Of a stretch of DNA of 64,000 nt, positions 12,510 through 22,124 are shown piece after piece. A program made the translations under genes and the position numbers. Where the stretch lies: positions 992,001 to 1,056,000 of the forward strand of contig NZ_CP012898.1 of assembly GCF_001310225.1 (NCBI RefSeq), written 5' to 3'. The stretch is from Pseudalgibacter alginicilyticus. Its GTDB lineage: Bacteria; Bacteroidota; Bacteroidia; Flavobacteriales; Flavobacteriaceae. Below the pieces are notes generated by a model. It saw nothing but the letters and a program-made list of their open reading frames with translations, had not been told where the DNA came from and did no database searches. Every line of letters starts with the position of its first letter. The first letter of the stretch is position 1.

Positions 12510-13022
12510 ATGATTTATAGATTTAGAGTCATCCTTGATAATGATACCGAAGACGATGTGTTCCGTGATTTAGAAATCCGTGAAGCTGATACGCTTGAAG
12601 ACTTACACAACGCCATAAACCAGTCTTTTGGATTTGAAGGTAATGAAATGGCATCGTTTTATGTCAGTGATGAACAATGGAATCAGGGCGAAGAAATTTC
12701 TTTATTTGATTTGAGTGATGAAAATCCTACTCGCTTAATGAACGAAACCACTTTAAACGATGTGGTACACGAAATGCAAACAAGACTTATTTATGTGTAT
12801 GACTTTTTTAGTATGTGGACCTTTTATGTGGAATTAGCAGAAATTGTTGAAGAAGCTGAAGGCGTTGACTATCCAAACCTTATGTTTGTTCATGGACAAA
12901 TTCCAGATGATGCTCCTGAGAAAAACTTTGAAGCGGATTTGGACGATGATTTTGACGAATTTGAAGACGGATTAGATATTGATGATTATGACAATTTAGA
13001 TTTTGATGAAAATTGGAATTAA
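12510..13022 (+). CDS. Plasmid pRiA4b ORF-3-like family protein
   Basis: 170-residue soluble protein of the pRiA4b ORF-3/IS1096 TnpR-like family, whose function is not established. The N-terminal domain starts YRFRVILDNDTEDDVFRDLEI and contains DTLEDLHNAINQSFGF, the conserved helix of the family. Residues about 135-170 form a very acidic Asp/Glu tail. The name derives from plasmid and transposon neighbours, but nothing mobile is visible here and the gene sits among housekeeping genes with its own -7 box. It is convergent with the kinase-like gene, 10 bp apart. Confidence 0.8.
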   Translation: MIYRFRVILDNDTEDDVFRDLEIREADTLEDLHNAINQSFGFEGNEMASFYVSDEQWNQGEEISLFDLSDENPTRLMNETTLNDVVHEMQTRLIYVYDFFSMWTFYVELAEIVEEAEGVDYPNLMFVHGQIPDDAPEKNFEADLDDDFDEFEDGLDIDDYDNLDFDENWN

Positions 13023-13032
13023 AACAAAACAA

Positions 13033-14091
13033 CTACATTTTTTGTGGATTCACATTTTCATAGTTATGCTTTAAAAATTCAAATGCATTTAGTAAAATTT
13101 CTCCCATAGATTGGCATTCCATAAATTTATCATCCAAAGTATAATCGTATATCTTTCCTTTAAGCATATCAATATGATCCTTTTTAGAAATTGTGTCATC
13201 AACCATACACGCCATTAATTCTTTAATTCTATCTTGAAAACTCTTTAAACGTTTTACCAAAATAGAACGTTCTTCAATTTTATATTGATCAATCGATAGT
13301 TTTTGAAAACTCTCAGCAACTAACTCAACCATTTTTAAATTTTCCTTAAAAAACTGAGGTCTATATACGTTAAACTTGCCTTCATAAGATTGCTGATCAA
13401 AATCAATGGGTCTAATATTATATTCTACATGATCAAAATCATGAGTGGTTACTATAACATAATTATAAGAACGCATATCTCCCAAAAGGCGTATCATACA
13501 GCGTTCATTAAACTTCACAAACTCTTTAGCTATTTGTGTTTTTTCCGATTTACTACACTTTGGGAGCATATTTTTTATAAACTCATCACCAGGTATTCCT
13601 GCAATATGATCTTCAATTAATGTGTCATCATGAACTAAAAAATTCAAATTATAAGGTGACAACATATGCTCTAACTCCAACCCATAAATACGAGATGCAT
13701 CAGCTTTCTTAACATAAAAATATGTGTAATTATCATTAAGAATATTTCTTATTTTAATGCGAAAAGGTTTGGAGTTCCCAAAGGTACAGTAGTCAATAGC
13801 ATCCACATTTAAATAGGCAATGGTACTTTCATTACCATCAGAACGAAATATGGAATACACTTTTTTTAAAGACAAATCTATTTCTTGTCTATCAAATTCA
13901 TTATAATACACACGAACCCAAAGTGTATCTTCATCATTTTTGTCATAAACAACAATGGAGCCTTGAAAACGGAGCAAATCATCATACAGAATAGGTAAGT
14001 TAATATTTCTGTTATATTCAAAAAGATATTTACTTAACTTTTCTGTGATTGGATAGGATGGTTTCTTTTTTGAAATCTTTAAATCTTGCAT
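13033..14091 (-). CDS. Unrecognised protein with a kinase-like residue pattern
   Basis: 352-residue soluble protein that I cannot place in a named family. Residues 119-232 show, in the correct order, the landmarks of a protein-kinase or APH-type fold: YFYVKKAD (K128/K129 as the strand-3 Lys), a helix with E139/E141, a hinge-like LIEDHIAGIPG (158-168), GDMRSYN (D205-x4-N210, like the catalytic loop) and RPIDFD (D230-F-D232, like DFG). A charged N-terminal beta-rich part precedes and a helical C-terminus follows. No signal peptide. It is monocistronic with a -7 box at 14106-14113. The kinase assignment is inference; a pseudokinase is equally possible. Confidence 0.7.
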   Translation of the reverse strand: MQDLKISKKKPSYPITEKLSKYLFEYNRNINLPILYDDLLRFQGSIVVYDKNDEDTLWVRVYYNEFDRQEIDLSLKKVYSIFRSDGNESTIAYLNVDAIDYCTFGNSKPFRIKIRNILNDNYTYFYVKKADASRIYGLELEHMLSPYNLNFLVHDDTLIEDHIAGIPGDEFIKNMLPKCSKSEKTQIAKEFVKFNERCMIRLLGDMRSYNYVIVTTHDFDHVEYNIRPIDFDQQSYEGKFNVYRPQFFKENLKMVELVAESFQKLSIDQYKIEERSILVKRLKSFQDRIKELMACMVDDTISKKDHIDMLKGKIYDYTLDDKFMECQSMGEILLNAFEFLKHNYENVNPQKM

Positions 14092-14105: not shown

Positions 14106-14113
14106 CAAAATTA
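14106..14113 (-). promoter_or_regulatory. -7 promoter box of the kinase-like gene
   Basis: Minus-strand TAATTTTG matches TAnnTTTG, 14 bp before the ATG at 14091. Confidence 0.55.
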
Positions 14114-14293
14114 CAGATTTTAATGGTATTGGATTCAAAAAAAAGCAATCTATTTATAAAAAATTTAAGATAAAATGTATGTATAAAACCTTTTCAAAAT
14201 TTTTATTATTTCAATAAAAAATATCTTTTTTTTAGTAGAACTGCTTAATTTGTCTTTTTGTCGTCACAATTATTATAAACTAAGGATTTATAA

Positions 14294-14321: not shown

Positions 14322-17078
14322 ATGAAAAACGCCCTCACCCTATTATTAGTATGCCTTTTTGTAATAAGCTCTTTCGCTCAAAAAGAAGCCAATAATTGGT
14401 ACTTTGGATCTTATGCAGGTATGAAATTTAATCCTGATGGATCAACTACTAATTTATCAGATGGAAAATTAGACACTTATGAAGGTTGTACAACAATATC
14501 AGATAGTAATGGCAATTTATTATTTTACACAGATGGAATTAGCATATGGAACAAATTACACCAACCCATGTTTAATGCAAACAGCTCTTATGGGAATGGC
14601 CTTTACGGAGACCCTTCAAGCTCTCAATCAGCCATTGTAGTTCCAAAACCTGACGATCCTAATATTTATTATATTTTTACAGTTGACACGTCTACAAATG
14701 ACAACGACCCCAATAGAGGTTTTAATTATTCTACCGTTGATTTAACTTTAAATGGTGGCTTAGGTGATGTCATTGCCTCTACAAAAAACACCAATTTACT
14801 ACCATATAGCTCAGAAAAAATCAGTGCTGTATTAAAAGACTGTATTTCTCAATCTATTTGGATTATAACTTTTGGAGCTTCCGGTGGTCCCTCTTCATAT
14901 TTCGACACATTTTATGCTTATGAAATTTCTACTTCAGGAGTTAACACAACACCTGTAATATCAACTTTTAATGTGTATGTTGAGGACGCTAGAGGATATT
15001 TAAAGCTATCCCCTGATGGTACAAAATTAGCATGCGCTAATGCAACATCAGGACTATACTTATATGATTTTGATGCTACAACAGGTATTGTAAGCAATCA
15101 AAAACCTATAAATATCAATTTTTATCAACCAGGAAAGCCTCAATCTCCTTATGGTGTAGAATTTTCTCAAAACAATGAACTACTCTATGTATCTGCTTAT
15201 TACAATCCTTCTAGAGAAGAAACTGACGTTCCATCCAGTCAATATGGTTCTTTACTTCAATATGATTTAACCGCAGCTAACATTAGTGATAGTGAGATTG
15301 TAATTGATGCTAGACCACAATATCGCGGAGCGTTACAATTAGGGCCAAATGGAAAAATTTACAGAGCCATGAGCACTACTTATAATATTGGAGCGCCATA
15401 CCTTTCTACAATTAATAACCCCAATGAACGTGGACCTGCATGTGATTATGAGCACAATGCTGTAGCATTAAGCTCCAATTCAAGCCAAGGACTTCCTCCT
15501 TTTATTTCATCTTTTTTTTCTGAAAAAATTGACATTATAGGAAACCAATCCTCTTCTACCAACTTATCCTTATGTGTTGGAGATACTTACATTTTAAAAG
15601 GCCCTGAAATACCAGGAGCAAAATATATTTGGACCTTTAACGATCAACCCTTAAGTAACAATGATTTTGATTTAGAAGTTTCACAAGTAGGATTATATAA
15701 AGTGGTAATAGACCAACAAACTGGAAACTGCGATGGTTTACTTGAAGGGGAAGCCTATGTTTCTTATAATCCTTTACCAGTGGCTTATGACGCTACACTT
15801 GTTCAATGTGATGAAGACGGAATTCCTGGTGGTATTACCCGTTTTAATCTCAATGAAGCTAATGATGAATTAACAGGTGGTATTGCTGGCTTAACAACAA
15901 AATTTTATTCTGATTTGGGAAGAACTATAGAAATTGATGGCAATAATTATTATCATGACACAAGTAATCCAAACCCTATCTATGTTAAAGTATTTAAGGA
16001 TTCTTGCTTTGATAGCTCTATATTAACCCTATCAGTAAATGATGTGCCTCGTGATAATTTTACAGCAACCGCTTTATGCGATGAATTAAATTCTGAAGAT
16101 GGTTTTAACACTTTTAATCTTAATACCATCACTTCAGAAATTCAAACACAAAAAAATATAATATTTCCTATAATTTACTATGAAACCATTGAAGATGCAC
16201 TTTTAGAAAAAAATGAACTAACAGGAAGTACTTACAAAAACACAACACCCTATTCACAAACCATTCATGCGCGTTATGAAAACCAAAATGCTTGTAATGG
16301 TATTATGGATGTACACTTAACTGTTAATAAACTACCAAATATTGAGGTTGAAGAAACCACTTATTATTGTAGCAATTATTTCCCCGAAACCATAACTATA
16401 AATGCTGGAAAATTAAACTCTGTAAATCCATCTGCCACTATTTCTGATTATAACTACCAATGGTCTACAGGGGAAACCACTTATCAAATAGATATAAATG
16501 AAGCAAAAATATACACCGTCTTAATTACCAACAAATCCACAAACTGTTCTAAAGAACGTACTATTAACGTATTAGAATCAAGCATAGCTACAGATCCAAA
16601 ATTTGAAGTAACCGATGCTACACAAAATAATGTTATAAGCCTATTTGTTTCAGGAACTGGCACTTATGAATATGCCATAGAAAATGATTCTGATTATTTT
16701 TATGTGCCATTTCAACAGAACCCTGTATTTAATAACATTCCACCTGGCATACACACAATACTTATTAAAGATGTTAAAAATGATTGTGGAACAACAACTC
16801 TTCAAGTACCTGTTATTGGATTCCCTAAATTTTTTACCCCAAATAACGATGGTTTTAATGATACATGGCAAGTATTTGGAATATCAGAACAATTTTATTC
16901 CAACTCCAAAGTTTTAATATATAATCGTTATGGAAAATTGATTAAAGAAATTGACCCCACAGGAAATGGATGGGACGGTTTATTTAATGGCAAATTACTT
17001 CCTGCGGACGATTATTGGTTTTTAGTAACATTAGAAGATGGTAGAATTTTCAAAAATCATTTTACCTTAAAAAGATAG
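14322..17078 (+). CDS. Type IX-secreted surface protein, propeller-like head, gliding-motility C-terminal domain
   Basis: 918-residue secreted protein. Signal peptide is residues 1-19 (ending SSFAQ). A head of about 370 residues begins with the family-typical NNWYFGSYAG and GCTTISDSNGNLLFYTDG and looks beta-propeller-like. Then come an Ig-like segment, two copies of a ~85-residue Cys-flanked repeat (VQCDEDG and ALCDELN starts) and another Ig-like segment. The last ~85 residues (FPKFFTPNNDGFNDTW to HFTLKR) are the CHU_C/TIGR04131 type B tail, read by the type IX system for export and surface attachment. First of three such genes in a row, and the shortest. Likely adhesin or glycan-binding surface protein; ligand unknown. 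Confidence 0.88.
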   Translation: MKNALTLLLVCLFVISSFAQKEANNWYFGSYAGMKFNPDGSTTNLSDGKLDTYEGCTTISDSNGNLLFYTDGISIWNKLHQPMFNANSSYGNGLYGDPSSSQSAIVVPKPDDPNIYYIFTVDTSTNDNDPNRGFNYSTVDLTLNGGLGDVIASTKNTNLLPYSSEKISAVLKDCISQSIWIITFGASGGPSSYFDTFYAYEISTSGVNTTPVISTFNVYVEDARGYLKLSPDGTKLACANATSGLYLYDFDATTGIVSNQKPININFYQPGKPQSPYGVEFSQNNELLYVSAYYNPSREETDVPSSQYGSLLQYDLTAANISDSEIVIDARPQYRGALQLGPNGKIYRAMSTTYNIGAPYLSTINNPNERGPACDYEHNAVALSSNSSQGLPPFISSFFSEKIDIIGNQSSSTNLSLCVGDTYILKGPEIPGAKYIWTFNDQPLSNNDFDLEVSQVGLYKVVIDQQTGNCDGLLEGEAYVSYNPLPVAYDATLVQCDEDGIPGGITRFNLNEANDELTGGIAGLTTKFYSDLGRTIEIDGNNYYHDTSNPNPIYVKVFKDSCFDSSILTLSVNDVPRDNFTATALCDELNSEDGFNTFNLNTITSEIQTQKNIIFPIIYYETIEDALLEKNELTGSTYKNTTPYSQTIHARYENQNACNGIMDVHLTVNKLPNIEVEETTYYCSNYFPETITINAGKLNSVNPSATISDYNYQWSTGETTYQIDINEAKIYTVLITNKSTNCSKERTINVLESSIATDPKFEVTDATQNNVISLFVSGTGTYEYAIENDSDYFYVPFQQNPVFNNIPPGIHTILIKDVKNDCGTTTLQVPVIGFPKFFTPNNDGFNDTWQVFGISEQFYSNSKVLIYNRYGKLIKEIDPTGNGWDGLFNGKLLPADDYWFLVTLEDGRIFKNHFTLKR

Positions 17079-17201: not shown

Positions 17202-20200
17202 GTGAAAAAAAACCTACCATATTATATTTCCTTATTTATATTTATTTGCAGCTTAAGCAACTTGCATTCTCAGCTAATATCAGTAGATAGTTCTATACCT
17301 TTAGAACAACTTATTCTGGACAATCTCATAAAAAATGGCTGTGTTGAAATATCAAACATTAGCTCGTCAATAAATGGATCAGCCTCTGGTTTTTCTAGTT
17401 ACGGACAATTTAGTAGAGCTGGATCTAATTTTCCTTTTGAAAATGGCATCGTTTTAACAACAGGAAATGCTGAATCTGCAGGAAATACGCCTATAACACC
17501 TCCTTTAACAGAAGGGGCTACTGATTGGGGATCAGATGCTGACTTAGAAAATGCTTTACAGGTTACCAACACTTTAAATGCCACCTCTATAGAATTTGAT
17601 TTAATATCCACTTCCAATAATTTACAATTTAATTATTTATTTGCCTCTGAAGAATACTTTGGCACAAACCCTTGTAATGTATCTGATGGCTTTGCTTTTT
17701 TAATTAAAGAGTCTGCTGGATTACATGCATACCGAAATATTGCTTTGGTTCCTGGCACCACAGATCCCGTGAACACAAACACCATTCGTACGGATATTTT
17801 CAATGCTACTGGAAATCTTGTATGTCCTGCTCAAAACACACAATATTTTGATGGCTTAGGAAATGGAGATACTAATTATAATGGAAGAACCACCACATTA
17901 ACCGCTTCTACAACTATTATCCCCTACACCCGTTATCGTATAAAATTAGTAATAGCAGACCAGAGTGATTTTCAATTTGATTCTGCCGTATTTATAGAAG
18001 GTAATAGCTTTAAAACAGTAGATTTAGGTGATGATATTTCAACCTGTAATAGCTCTGCTGTTCTTAATGCTTATACAGGAAACCCTTTTGCAGGATATGA
18101 ATGGTTTTACAATAATACACCCATACCAGGCCCCCTACCTTCGTCCTATACAGCTATGCAAAGTGGTACCTATCGCGTAGAAGTCACTGTGCAACTTTCT
18201 AATGGAGATGAATGTGTGGAATCTGATGAGATAGAAGTGGTTTTAAACACAGAAGAACCTGTTCCTACGCTTTCCGACTATGCATTATGTGGCGACCCGT
18301 CGAACGTGACAGACACTGAAACGTTTAATCTTAACATTAAAAATTCAGAAATAGCCACTATTAGCCCCTATTCAAATTATAATGTTACCTATCACTATAA
18401 TGAAGAAGAAGCAAGAAGTAATTCAAACAGTATAAGCTCACCAATTCCAAACACGACTAATCCGCAATCTATTGTTGCGCGTATAAATGACTTAGATACA
18501 GGGTGTGCTACTTACACATCTTTTAATTTAATAGTAAATACAGCTCCTAACGCTATAACACCAACAACTCTTGAAGTTTGTGATAATGACGACATCCCTG
18601 ATGATGGATTTTATTTTATAGATTTAACCGAAAAAGATGATGAAATAACAGGAGGACTTCCTGATTTAGCGGTTACTTATTACTATAATTCAACAGATGC
18701 TGCTAATGGTATCAACCCTATAACATCACTCTACAGAAATACTACAACACCAACAGACCAAGTTTTTGCTACGGTTATCAATACTCAAACAACCTGTGTA
18801 AGCTCTGTTGTGCCTGTAAACATTAATGTAACAAGCAGTCCACTTATTGACTTTGAAAAGCAATTTATCGATGCTTGTGATCCAGACCACGATGGGTTTG
18901 CTACTTTTGATTTAACAGAAGTACTTAATAATGTTTTAAACGGTATTGACCCAAGTAGTGTAACAGCCACTTACCATGAAGTTGAAAACGATGCTGACCT
19001 TGGAATTAATCCCATTACCAACGAAACCAATTATGCCAATATTGTTTCAAATGTACAAACAGTCTTTATAAGAATTGAGGATAATGTATCATTATGTGCT
19101 TCTGTAGCTGAAATTGAAATCCACACCAATTTATTATTAACAGGTACGGATATTACAGATTTTGCAATATGTGATAACAATGCAGACCCTAATGATGAAG
19201 CTAATTTTGACCTTAATTCAATTGAGTTTTTTATCAATAATGGCCTCGACTTTGATGGAGACCCTAATACGCTTGAAATTAGTGTTGATTTTTTTGAAGA
19301 TGAAGACGATAGAGATGCCAATACAAATGCTTTGGATAAATCTGCTTTATATTCTGCACCTAACCAAACAACATTATACATTCGGTTAACAAACACCATA
19401 ACCAACTGTGAAGATATTGAAGATATTCAATTGATAATTAACCCGATTTTAATATTTAATCCTGTAGACCCACTTCCCTATTGTGATAGTGACTCTGATG
19501 TTACTGATGGAATTACTCTAATAGATTTACATTCATTGGATGATATGATAACAAATGGTAATCCAGATTTTGCAACAAGTTTCTTTCCAACTGAAACAGA
19601 TGCAGACATGAATAATACTGCAAACCTGCTTCCGGATATGTATTCCGTAAATACACAAGAAACAATTTTTGTTAGAATTGAAAATACAGATACAGCCTGT
19701 TATACTTCCAATTCTTTCGATATACGCGTGGTTCCTTCACCTGAAACCATGCAACCAATTGATGACGTTTTTTGTGATACCAGTGATACCAAAATATTTA
19801 ATCTTGAAGACAAAATACCAGAAATAGTTTCGAGCACTGCTGGTATTGATATTGGTTTTTTTACCTCGTTGGATGATGCAGAAAATAATACAAATCCAAT
19901 AACAAACCGAACTACCTATACCGCCAATACACAAACCATGTATGTTAGAATTGGCGACAATACACCAGGAACTAGTTGTTATAAAATTGTTTCTTACGAA
20001 ATAATTATAAATACAATACCTGTTTTTCCTACTAATGGCATCAATGATTTTGTTATTTGTGATGGTGATGAAAATAACGAAGCTGAATTTTTATTTAGCA
20101 ACAAGGATGCAGAGATTTTAGATGGACAAACTGGCAAAGAAGTCCTCTATTTTGAAGATTCTGCATATAGCATTGAAATTCCAAAAAACATACCATATAA

Positions 20201-22124
20201 ATCTGGTGATAGAACCGTATATGTTCGTATTGAAAACACTACAGATTCAAGCTGCTTTACTACTTCATCATTTGAAATTAAAGTGGCATCAGAAATCATT
20301 TTTAATGCTTTCATTCCTTTTAATGAGTGTGATGATGCAAGCAATGATGAAAAACATGCGTTTGATTTAGGTTTCAAGCGAACTGAAATCACCCAAGGCG
20401 TCCCAGAAAATTTAAATGTTTCATTTCATTTAACAGAAGCTTTGGCTGAAAGCAACACCAATCCATTACCTGACACCTATACCAATGTTACCCCGCAACA
20501 AACATTATATGTTAGAATTGAAAATGTTAATTCTTCGTGCTATACAATCGAAGAATTGGATTTAGGGATAACGCCTAGTATTGAGCTTACAGACGCTGCA
20601 CCTTTTGAACTTTGTGATGATAATAATGATGGTTTGGCTACTTTTAATTTAGAACTTGCTGATTTTGAAATATTAGATAGAGTAATTGGTCCGCCACCAG
20701 TTATAAATTATTTTGAAAATGAAGCTGATACTATTGATAATACTTTACAAATTACAAATCCTACTTCGTATATAAGCGAATCTAAAACAATCTACATAAA
20801 AGTGACTCCCCAATCAGGATGTTATAGCGTAATTCCATTACAACTTGTTGTTAACCCCTACCCAACCATTAATAACATATCTACATTAGAAGATTGTTTT
20901 AGTACCACTTATGATTTAACACAAGTAGATAATTTAATAGTAAATAACCCAAGTAATTATAACATTACTTACTATAGTAATGAAAACGATGCAAATGATG
21001 GTTTAGGAAACATCGGAAACACATTTAACTATACAAACCCTGGCAATTATACCATTTGGTTCCGTACAGAAAATCCAACAACCGGCTGTTTTATAACCTC
21101 TTCATTTGTTTTGGAAATTAACGCAAACCCTATTGCAAACACCCCTCCAAATTTGGAAGCCTGTGATGATGACTATGATGGCTTCCTCACTTTTGACCTA
21201 TCCAATTCAAGTAGTACGAGTTATGCTATTAGAGGTTCTCAAAGTATTTCTAATTTTACTGTTACTTATTATGACAATTTAGCAAATGCTGAATCTAAAA
21301 CCAACCCCATAGCTACAAATTACTCATCTGTAGATGGCGAGGTTATTTATGCTAGAATAGAAAATAATGCTACTGGATGTTTCAATATCACGCAATTTGA
21401 TATTACAATTAATCCAAAACCTATAATACCTATTGATGATGTGGTAACACTTTGTATCAATAATTTACCTCTAACCATTTCTGCTGAGACCAGCAATATA
21501 GGTGACATTTATTTATGGTCTACCGGGGAAACGACATCTGAAATATTACTTACAGACCCAAATGATATTGGTTCATATTGGGTGAATGTAACCACACCAA
21601 CCACTGGGTGTTCTACAACAAAATCATTTGAAGTTATAGAATCTGCCATAGCTGATATAAATTTTACCACAACAGTAGATTTTGCCGACCCTAATAGAAT
21701 CACCATTGATGTTAGCGGTATTGGTAATTATGTTTTTAGCATAGATGGTGGCGAACCACAAACTTCAAATATTTTTGAAAATGCACCTATTGGTGAACAC
21801 ACTATTACAGTAACAGATTTAAATGGATGTCATGACGTAAGTAAAGAAGTTGTGGTTATAGATGTTCCAAAATTTGTAACTCCAAATGGTGATGGCTATT
21901 TTGATACTTGGCATATAACAGGGGTTAATCAACTAACAGGAACAGTTGTGTATATTTATGACCGATACGGAAAACTGCTTAAAACACTACATCATACATC
22001 TCCAGGATGGGATGGCACTTTTAACGGGGCTAATATGCCTGCTGATGATTATTGGTACACCGCTCAAGTTTTTTACAATGGTGAAGAGTTGAATCTTAAA
22101 GGGCATTTTACTTTAAAACGATAA
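17202..22124 (+). CDS. Giant type IX-secreted protein: choice-of-anchor L head, 11 repeats, gliding-motility C-terminal domain
   Basis: 1640-residue secreted protein with a GTG start that opens a signal peptide (MKKNLPYYIS to NLHSQ, about 23 residues). Residues about 25-270 are a choice-of-anchor L domain, with ENGIVLTTGN, LQFNYLFASEEY and VSDGFAFLI. After an Ig-like stretch come eleven ~85-95-residue repeats, each opening with a Cys-Asp-rich segment such as EVCDNDD, DACDPDHDGFATFDL or EACDDDYDGFLTFDL and closing with a Cys before a hydrophobic strand. An Ig-like unit and the type B tail (PKFVTPNGDGYFDTW to HFTLKR) end it. The Asp-rich motifs suggest calcium binding. It probably forms a rod-like surface adhesin; the ligand is unknown. 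Confidence 0.88.
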   Translation: MKKNLPYYISLFIFICSLSNLHSQLISVDSSIPLEQLILDNLIKNGCVEISNISSSINGSASGFSSYGQFSRAGSNFPFENGIVLTTGNAESAGNTPITPPLTEGATDWGSDADLENALQVTNTLNATSIEFDLISTSNNLQFNYLFASEEYFGTNPCNVSDGFAFLIKESAGLHAYRNIALVPGTTDPVNTNTIRTDIFNATGNLVCPAQNTQYFDGLGNGDTNYNGRTTTLTASTTIIPYTRYRIKLVIADQSDFQFDSAVFIEGNSFKTVDLGDDISTCNSSAVLNAYTGNPFAGYEWFYNNTPIPGPLPSSYTAMQSGTYRVEVTVQLSNGDECVESDEIEVVLNTEEPVPTLSDYALCGDPSNVTDTETFNLNIKNSEIATISPYSNYNVTYHYNEEEARSNSNSISSPIPNTTNPQSIVARINDLDTGCATYTSFNLIVNTAPNAITPTTLEVCDNDDIPDDGFYFIDLTEKDDEITGGLPDLAVTYYYNSTDAANGINPITSLYRNTTTPTDQVFATVINTQTTCVSSVVPVNINVTSSPLIDFEKQFIDACDPDHDGFATFDLTEVLNNVLNGIDPSSVTATYHEVENDADLGINPITNETNYANIVSNVQTVFIRIEDNVSLCASVAEIEIHTNLLLTGTDITDFAICDNNADPNDEANFDLNSIEFFINNGLDFDGDPNTLEISVDFFEDEDDRDANTNALDKSALYSAPNQTTLYIRLTNTITNCEDIEDIQLIINPILIFNPVDPLPYCDSDSDVTDGITLIDLHSLDDMITNGNPDFATSFFPTETDADMNNTANLLPDMYSVNTQETIFVRIENTDTACYTSNSFDIRVVPSPETMQPIDDVFCDTSDTKIFNLEDKIPEIVSSTAGIDIGFFTSLDDAENNTNPITNRTTYTANTQTMYVRIGDNTPGTSCYKIVSYEIIINTIPVFPTNGINDFVICDGDENNEAEFLFSNKDAEILDGQTGKEVLYFEDSAYSIEIPKNIPYKSGDRTVYVRIENTTDSSCFTTSSFEIKVASEIIFNAFIPFNECDDASNDEKHAFDLGFKRTEITQGVPENLNVSFHLTEALAESNTNPLPDTYTNVTPQQTLYVRIENVNSSCYTIEELDLGITPSIELTDAAPFELCDDNNDGLATFNLELADFEILDRVIGPPPVINYFENEADTIDNTLQITNPTSYISESKTIYIKVTPQSGCYSVIPLQLVVNPYPTINNISTLEDCFSTTYDLTQVDNLIVNNPSNYNITYYSNENDANDGLGNIGNTFNYTNPGNYTIWFRTENPTTGCFITSSFVLEINANPIANTPPNLEACDDDYDGFLTFDLSNSSSTSYAIRGSQSISNFTVTYYDNLANAESKTNPIATNYSSVDGEVIYARIENNATGCFNITQFDITINPKPIIPIDDVVTLCINNLPLTISAETSNIGDIYLWSTGETTSEILLTDPNDIGSYWVNVTTPTTGCSTTKSFEVIESAIADINFTTTVDFADPNRITIDVSGIGNYVFSIDGGEPQTSNIFENAPIGEHTITVTDLNGCHDVSKEVVVIDVPKFVTPNGDGYFDTWHITGVNQLTGTVVYIYDRYGKLLKTLHHTSPGWDGTFNGANMPADDYWYTAQVFYNGEELNLKGHFTLKR

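Follow-up and report, generated by a model that had tools for sequence, protein, structure and literature searches.

UbiB proteins are marked by a KxGQ motif and an Ala-rich nucleotide loop. HipA, a genuine kinase-fold family, has a long Asn-to-Asp spacing in its D...N...D series, while in PKA, APH, and PI3K the Asn and the DFx motif lie about 13 residues apart. Most protein-kinase-like families lack the Gly of DFG, DFD is the natural motif of Mnk kinases, and the His of HRD was lost in several families that kept both fold and function (PMC1821047). Reactions other than those of kinases also occur in the kinase fold (PMC10870513).

We analyzed a window of 64,000 nucleotides from Pseudalgibacter alginicilyticus, whose genome is a single contig of 3.99 Mb. 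The window contains a gene for a predicted kinase-fold protein. This protein likely has the protein-kinase-like (PKL) fold, is active as an ATP-dependent phosphotransferase, and founds its own Bacteroidota family, absent from the libraries searched. The basis for this reading is the observed conservation, the order of the predicted secondary structure, and the result of the fold search. A literature search found no description of the family.

Motif residues are conserved in a family spread through Bacteroidota

The gene and the regions of its product discussed below are as follows (window coordinates).

13033..14091 (-): gene for the predicted kinase-fold protein, 352 aa; ATG at 14091, stop at 13033
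13813..14091 (-): N-terminal extension, residues 1-93 (helix, beta hairpin, helix in the predicted secondary structure); K10, Y36, and Y79 invariant
13759..13785 (-): loop TFGNSKPFR, residues 103-111, between the first two core strands; N106, P109, and R111 invariant
13705..13731 (-): third core strand, residues 121-129, with invariant K128 at the ATP-lysine position (predicted structure and conservation)
13660..13698 (-): C-helix equivalent, residues 132-144, with E139/E141 (predicted structure and conservation)
13588..13623 (-): fifth strand and hinge TLIE[E/D]HIxGIPG, residues 157-168; E160, H162, G165, and P167 invariant; aligns to the UbiB hinge
13462..13482 (-): putative catalytic loop GDM[R/H]xxN, residues 204-210; D205 and N210 invariant, position 207 always basic
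13390..13404 (-): putative DFG-equivalent metal-binding motif DFDQQ, residues 230-234; D230, F231, D232, and Q233 invariant

We counted conservation in an alignment of 195 homologues with identities down to 37%. K128, E160, H162, G165, P167, D205, N210, D230, F231, D232, and Q233 are identical in 195 of 195 sequences. Position 139 is Glu in 193 sequences and Asp in two, and position 141 is Glu in 194. Two residues past the putative catalytic Asp, position 207 is Arg in 175 homologues and His in 20, and thus basic in all of them. K129 is variable, being Lys in 45 of 90 representatives. As no more than 32 of the 352 columns are without variation, and these include K128, D205, N210, and D230, the pattern of these four residues is, judged from the alignment, beyond chance. 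The chance that four random columns would all be invariant is ~6e-5, a figure that ignores the commoner conservation of polar catalytic-type residues. N210 and D230 are spaced 20 residues apart, farther than the ~13 of PKA, APH, and PI3K, a difference that speaks against the kinase reading.

An earlier sequence-only reading had placed K128/K129, E139/E141, LIEDHIAGIPG, D205-x4-N210, and D230-F-D232 in the protein encoded at 13033-14091. The ORF (minus strand, ATG start, 352 aa) and the position of every named residue proved correct, with LIEDHIAGIPG at 158-168, and the variability at K128, D205, N210, or D230 that would have spoken against its kinase assignment was not found.

Homologues occur in 32 of 60 related genomes, including 29 of 37 from the same family (Flavobacteriaceae), and on at least 80 named genome contigs, the named ones being Flavobacteriaceae. 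More widely, they were found in 85 of 247 genomes of a class sample, 68 of 247 genomes of a phylum sample, and 96 of 199 genomes sampled from another order of the same class. The family is thus strongly conserved in about a quarter to half of the sampled Bacteroidota genomes and is present in most genera of Flavobacteriaceae. A contig titled "uncultured Rhodobacteraceae" (L062) carries a copy 73% identical to the protein and probably belongs to a flavobacterial MAG that was misnamed or contaminated. As the gene was not found in the plasmids, phages, and viral contigs searched, we dropped a mobile or defense role.

The predicted structure follows the order of a kinase

AlphaFold2 with a 90-row alignment spanning Bacteroidota gave a model with a pLDDT of 93.6 and a pTM of 0.90, and all five models agreed (pLDDT 92.9-93.6). 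This model superseded one made with a 36-row alignment (pLDDT 85.9). In the 90-row model, strands at 94-102, 110-116, and 121-129 (containing K128) are followed by a helix at 132-144 (containing E139/E141), strands at 151-154 and 157-161, the hinge, and helices at 168-178 and 181-201. D205 and N210 lie in the loop after the long 181-201 helix, and D230 directly follows a beta hairpin (211-217/222-228), with helices thereafter. The order of elements in the predicted structure is that of a kinase. In this model, the TFGNSKPFR loop sits in place of the glycine-rich nucleotide loop, a position that suggests a corresponding role.

A Foldseek search of the PDB with the 90-row model returned 138 matches at E≤0.001. 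The 50 of these 138 that were listed were all kinases, with probabilities up to 1.00. The 36-row model gave a similar list of kinases with weaker E-values, none below 0.001. In BFVD, the 36-row model had three matches at E≤0.001, all of them viral Ser/Thr kinases. The TYK2 and JAK2 pseudokinase domains were high in the fold-search lists, where pseudokinase matches were interleaved with active kinases.

The matches would fit a two-lobed kinase fold, but the TM-scores were at most 0.40, under the 0.5 usual for a shared fold. They ranged from 0.21 to 0.40, most between 0.21 and 0.31, and the best among the matches listed were Vps34 (2x6j_B, 0.40) and p110alpha (0.36). Possibly, the lobe arrangement or the C-lobe differs from that of known kinases, or the Foldseek alignments are poor. 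Given these scores, the likeness to kinases would be one of local structure and topology with a poor superposition of the whole, and the C-lobe is probably divergent. The fold search that the sequence-only reading had proposed as a check returned kinases alone among the 50 PDB matches listed, with TM-scores below 0.5.

Sequence profiles do not place the protein in a known kinase family

The protein matched no family in the Pfam, NCBIfam, PHROGs, and PADLOC libraries, nor any among PDB sequences searched with phmmer and profiles. No known kinase family gave a significant sequence match, the best HH probability being 19.5%. PF01636 (APH) did not match the protein at E≤10 or any of 36 homologues. 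Neither PF00069 (Pkinase), whose HRD and DFG are replaced by LGD and DFD, nor PF07804 (HipA) gave a profile match to the protein or these homologues, and the SelO and SidJ profiles did not match the protein. The only match of a known-kinase Pfam family to any family member was to ABC1/UbiB (PF03109), at a sub-threshold E of 0.24 in one member, spanning the sequence that leads to the catalytic loop and the loop itself. We rejected an NCBIfam NAD-kinase match (E 0.0022, residues 256-324), which falls on the C-terminal helices and lies far below the cut-off.

For profile-profile comparison, alignments of APH, HipA, Pkinase, and UbiB were built from Bacteroidota genomes, and ten distinct unrelated neighbor families served as decoys. 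DUF2252, with only two members found, was too small for a profile. Among these profiles, APH gave the full family its highest score (24, with decoys at most 19.3), at HH probabilities of 2-7%. The best-scoring APH segment puts D205...N210 on the APH catalytic loop, and the best-scoring Pkinase segment aligns both the catalytic loop and DFG. With hhalign, HipA remained at decoy level. The subset of members with GDMHxGN aligned to UbiB with a score of 30.5 (E 0.0012, probability 19.5%; decoys at most 19.4), and for this subset the alignment was co-linear over 72 columns that take in the hinge, the GDMHxGN loop, and IDF[D/G]. We regard this UbiB alignment as suggestive only. By the same method, HipA also fails to match the Pkinase, APH, and UbiB profiles. 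As HipA is invisible to the other kinase profiles, the test has low power, and a negative result in it is weak.

The source genome also encodes two ordinary APH-family (PF01636) proteins (genome coordinates 3075076-3075792 and 3296566-3297276) and one HipA_C protein (1714348-1714980). The orphan is therefore not the sole kinase of such a kind in this genome.

The gene probably stands alone in Flavobacteriaceae and adjoins bshA or clp genes elsewhere

At 80 Flavobacteriaceae loci, the recurrent neighbors on both sides lie on the strand opposite to the kinase gene. A PRiA4_ORF3-like protein gene adjoins it at 71 of the 80 loci, and genes that read from their sequences as ABC transporter genes are found at 60. 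In the window, the PRiA4_ORF3-like protein (PF07929, E 4e-21) is encoded at 12510-13022 (+), convergent with the kinase gene. The genes at 14322-17078 and 17202-22124 (+) code for two large secreted proteins, both of which bear T9SS type B sorting domains (TIGR04131); the second also has a choice-of-anchor L domain.

A promoter-like element lies upstream of the start codon.

14106..14139 (-): promoter-like TTTG-N22-TAATTTTG; the -7 box ends 15 nt before the ATG, and the position of this box recurs in homologues

The Bacteroidota -7 box TAnnTTTG occurs within 150 nt upstream of the gene in 38 of 80 homologues, and 24 of the occurrences lie 15-19 nt before the ATG. By itself, the full TTTG/TAnnTTTG pattern is no more frequent in the window than expected by chance. 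As the neighbors are on the opposite strand, the gene would stand alone in Flavobacteriaceae, and its leader would be very short. Together with the recurrent box, this supports, for Flavobacteriaceae, the earlier proposal that the gene has its own promoter and is not part of the neighboring genes.

Outside Bacteroidia, the kinase gene lies 9-114 bp downstream of bshA (TIGR03999) on the same strand at 11 of 15 loci (L156-L158, L161-L167, and L170), which fall in about six GTDB families. At the Bacteroidia loci, bshA is elsewhere; in the source genome it is at 878131 and the kinase gene at 1005036. As bshA is near universal (241 of 247 phylum genomes, against 68 of 247 with the kinase), co-occurrence of the two genes is uninformative. 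In one genus (g187), three species have a kinase copy between clpP (clpP2) and clpX on the same strand (L155 in G287, L354 in G641, and L327/L356 in G658), and a fourth has its copy elsewhere. G287 and G658 hold a second kinase copy elsewhere. The clp-locus kinase has diverged within the genus: it shares 49-53% identity with the G287 copy, against 85-94% for the Clp proteins. Both adjacencies are weak leads to function rather than proof.

Discussion

We propose that a two-lobed core follows the N-terminal extension of ~93 residues. The N-lobe would contribute the GN[S/T]xPFR loop, K128 as the ATP lysine, and E139/E141 on the C-helix, and the hinge (E160-x-H-x-x-G-x-P) would connect it to a helical C-lobe. 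In the GDM[R/H]xxN loop of the C-lobe, D205 may act as the base, R/H207 contact phosphate, and N210 bind metal, as may D230 of DFDQQ. The protein would thus bind ATP and Mg and transfer phosphate. By analogy, the substrate is a little more likely to be a small molecule than a protein, since the DxH/R-xx-N and ExxxGxP motifs resemble those of small-molecule and UbiB-type kinases and an extended activation segment like that of eukaryotic protein kinases was not recognized.

The sequence-only reading had suggested that the protein could be inactive, citing DFD and the missing His of HRD. These features, together with the TYK2 and JAK2 domains high in the fold searches, would fit a pseudokinase or nucleotide-binding scaffold that has a kinase fold without phosphate transfer. 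We disfavor this suggestion: DFD, as in the Mnk kinases, and loss of the HRD His, as in several active families, are normal variants (PMC1821047), and the pseudokinase matches were interspersed among active kinases. Pseudokinases by definition lack catalytic residues, and here the Lys, Glu, Asp, Asn, and metal Asp are strictly, or almost strictly, constrained across a phylum. We therefore think it more likely that the protein is active, and a pseudokinase is improbable. It is also unlikely that the protein has an unrelated alpha/beta fold and that its conserved polar residues fall in kinase order by accident. The lack of a significant kinase-family profile match and the TM-scores below 0.5 would be expected of such a protein; against this, the PDB matches listed were kinases alone, two separate models gave lists of kinases, the catalytic residues are invariant, and HipA is a genuine kinase fold equally invisible to the APH, Pkinase, and UbiB profiles.

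A kinase-fold enzyme could instead use ATP for AMPylation, as in SelO, for glutamylation, as in SidJ, or for ATPase-driven work, as in UbiB/COQ8. The kinase fold supports such non-kinase reactions (PMC10870513), and the best profile alignment is to UbiB, for which an ATPase activity has been discussed (PMC7263595). We give this alternative little credence, since SelO and SidJ profiles do not match, the residue pattern is that of a canonical phosphotransferase, and the KxGQ of UbiB was not seen, the Lys motif being YVKK. A role in the metabolism of bacillithiol, a low-molecular-weight thiol, overlaps with the active-kinase explanation and would add only a substrate area to it: BshA, a precursor of bacillithiol, or an enzyme that depends on bacillithiol. 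The position of bshA directly upstream at most loci outside Bacteroidia points in this direction, but the genes are apart in Bacteroidia, their co-occurrence says nothing, and the gene order at the 11 loci may go back to a single ancestor, leaving this role quite improbable. A long shot is that the protein serves across Bacteroidota as a kinase, regulatory or metabolic, with a link to thiol redox balance or Clp proteolysis. If so, it might modify a bacillithiol intermediate or mark proteins for ClpXP, and the bshA-kinase and clpP-kinase-clpX arrangements would reflect one conserved function.

An active phosphotransferase thus remains our preferred explanation, and the protein represents a real, conserved, and probably catalytic kinase-fold family that would be new within a known superfamily and has no Pfam or NCBIfam model. 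Confirmation would enlarge the protein-kinase-like superfamily by one family, and a deletion phenotype and a substrate search would be directly feasible in tractable flavobacteria.

Comparison with known kinase families

Eukaryotic-type protein kinases (PF00069) account for most Foldseek matches, with the DxxxxN and DFx positions in register, but the orphan lacks HRD, the Gly of DFG, and a recognizable extended activation segment. PI3K-type lipid kinases (Vps34 and p110alpha) are among the top TM-scores listed and have a GDxHxxN-style loop, yet the orphan has neither a sequence match to them nor the accessory PI3K domains. With HipA (PF07804), also a stand-alone bacterial kinase, it shares the D...N...D order with long N-to-D spacing, whereas the profile score of 15-20 is at decoy level.

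The likeness to APH (PF01636) and ChoK comprises a GD-x-[H/R]-x-x-N loop, an ExxxGxP-like hinge, a conserved Asn-Ser/Thr in the nucleotide loop, and IDFD; in contrast, the His of HGD is Leu in the orphan (LGD). Of the earlier proposal of a kinase of the APH/protein-kinase group, the kinase fold is supported by the invariant residues and Foldseek, while APH-family membership is not, as PF01636 does not match. Unlike UbiB/ABC1/COQ8 (PF03109), the orphan has DFD, a hairpin about seven residues longer between the Asn and DFx, and YVKK and TFGN[ST]xPFR where KxGQ and the Ala-rich loop were not seen. Its GDMHxGN members are nevertheless co-linear with UbiB through the E-x-I-x-G hinge, the DxHxGN loop, and IDF[D/G].
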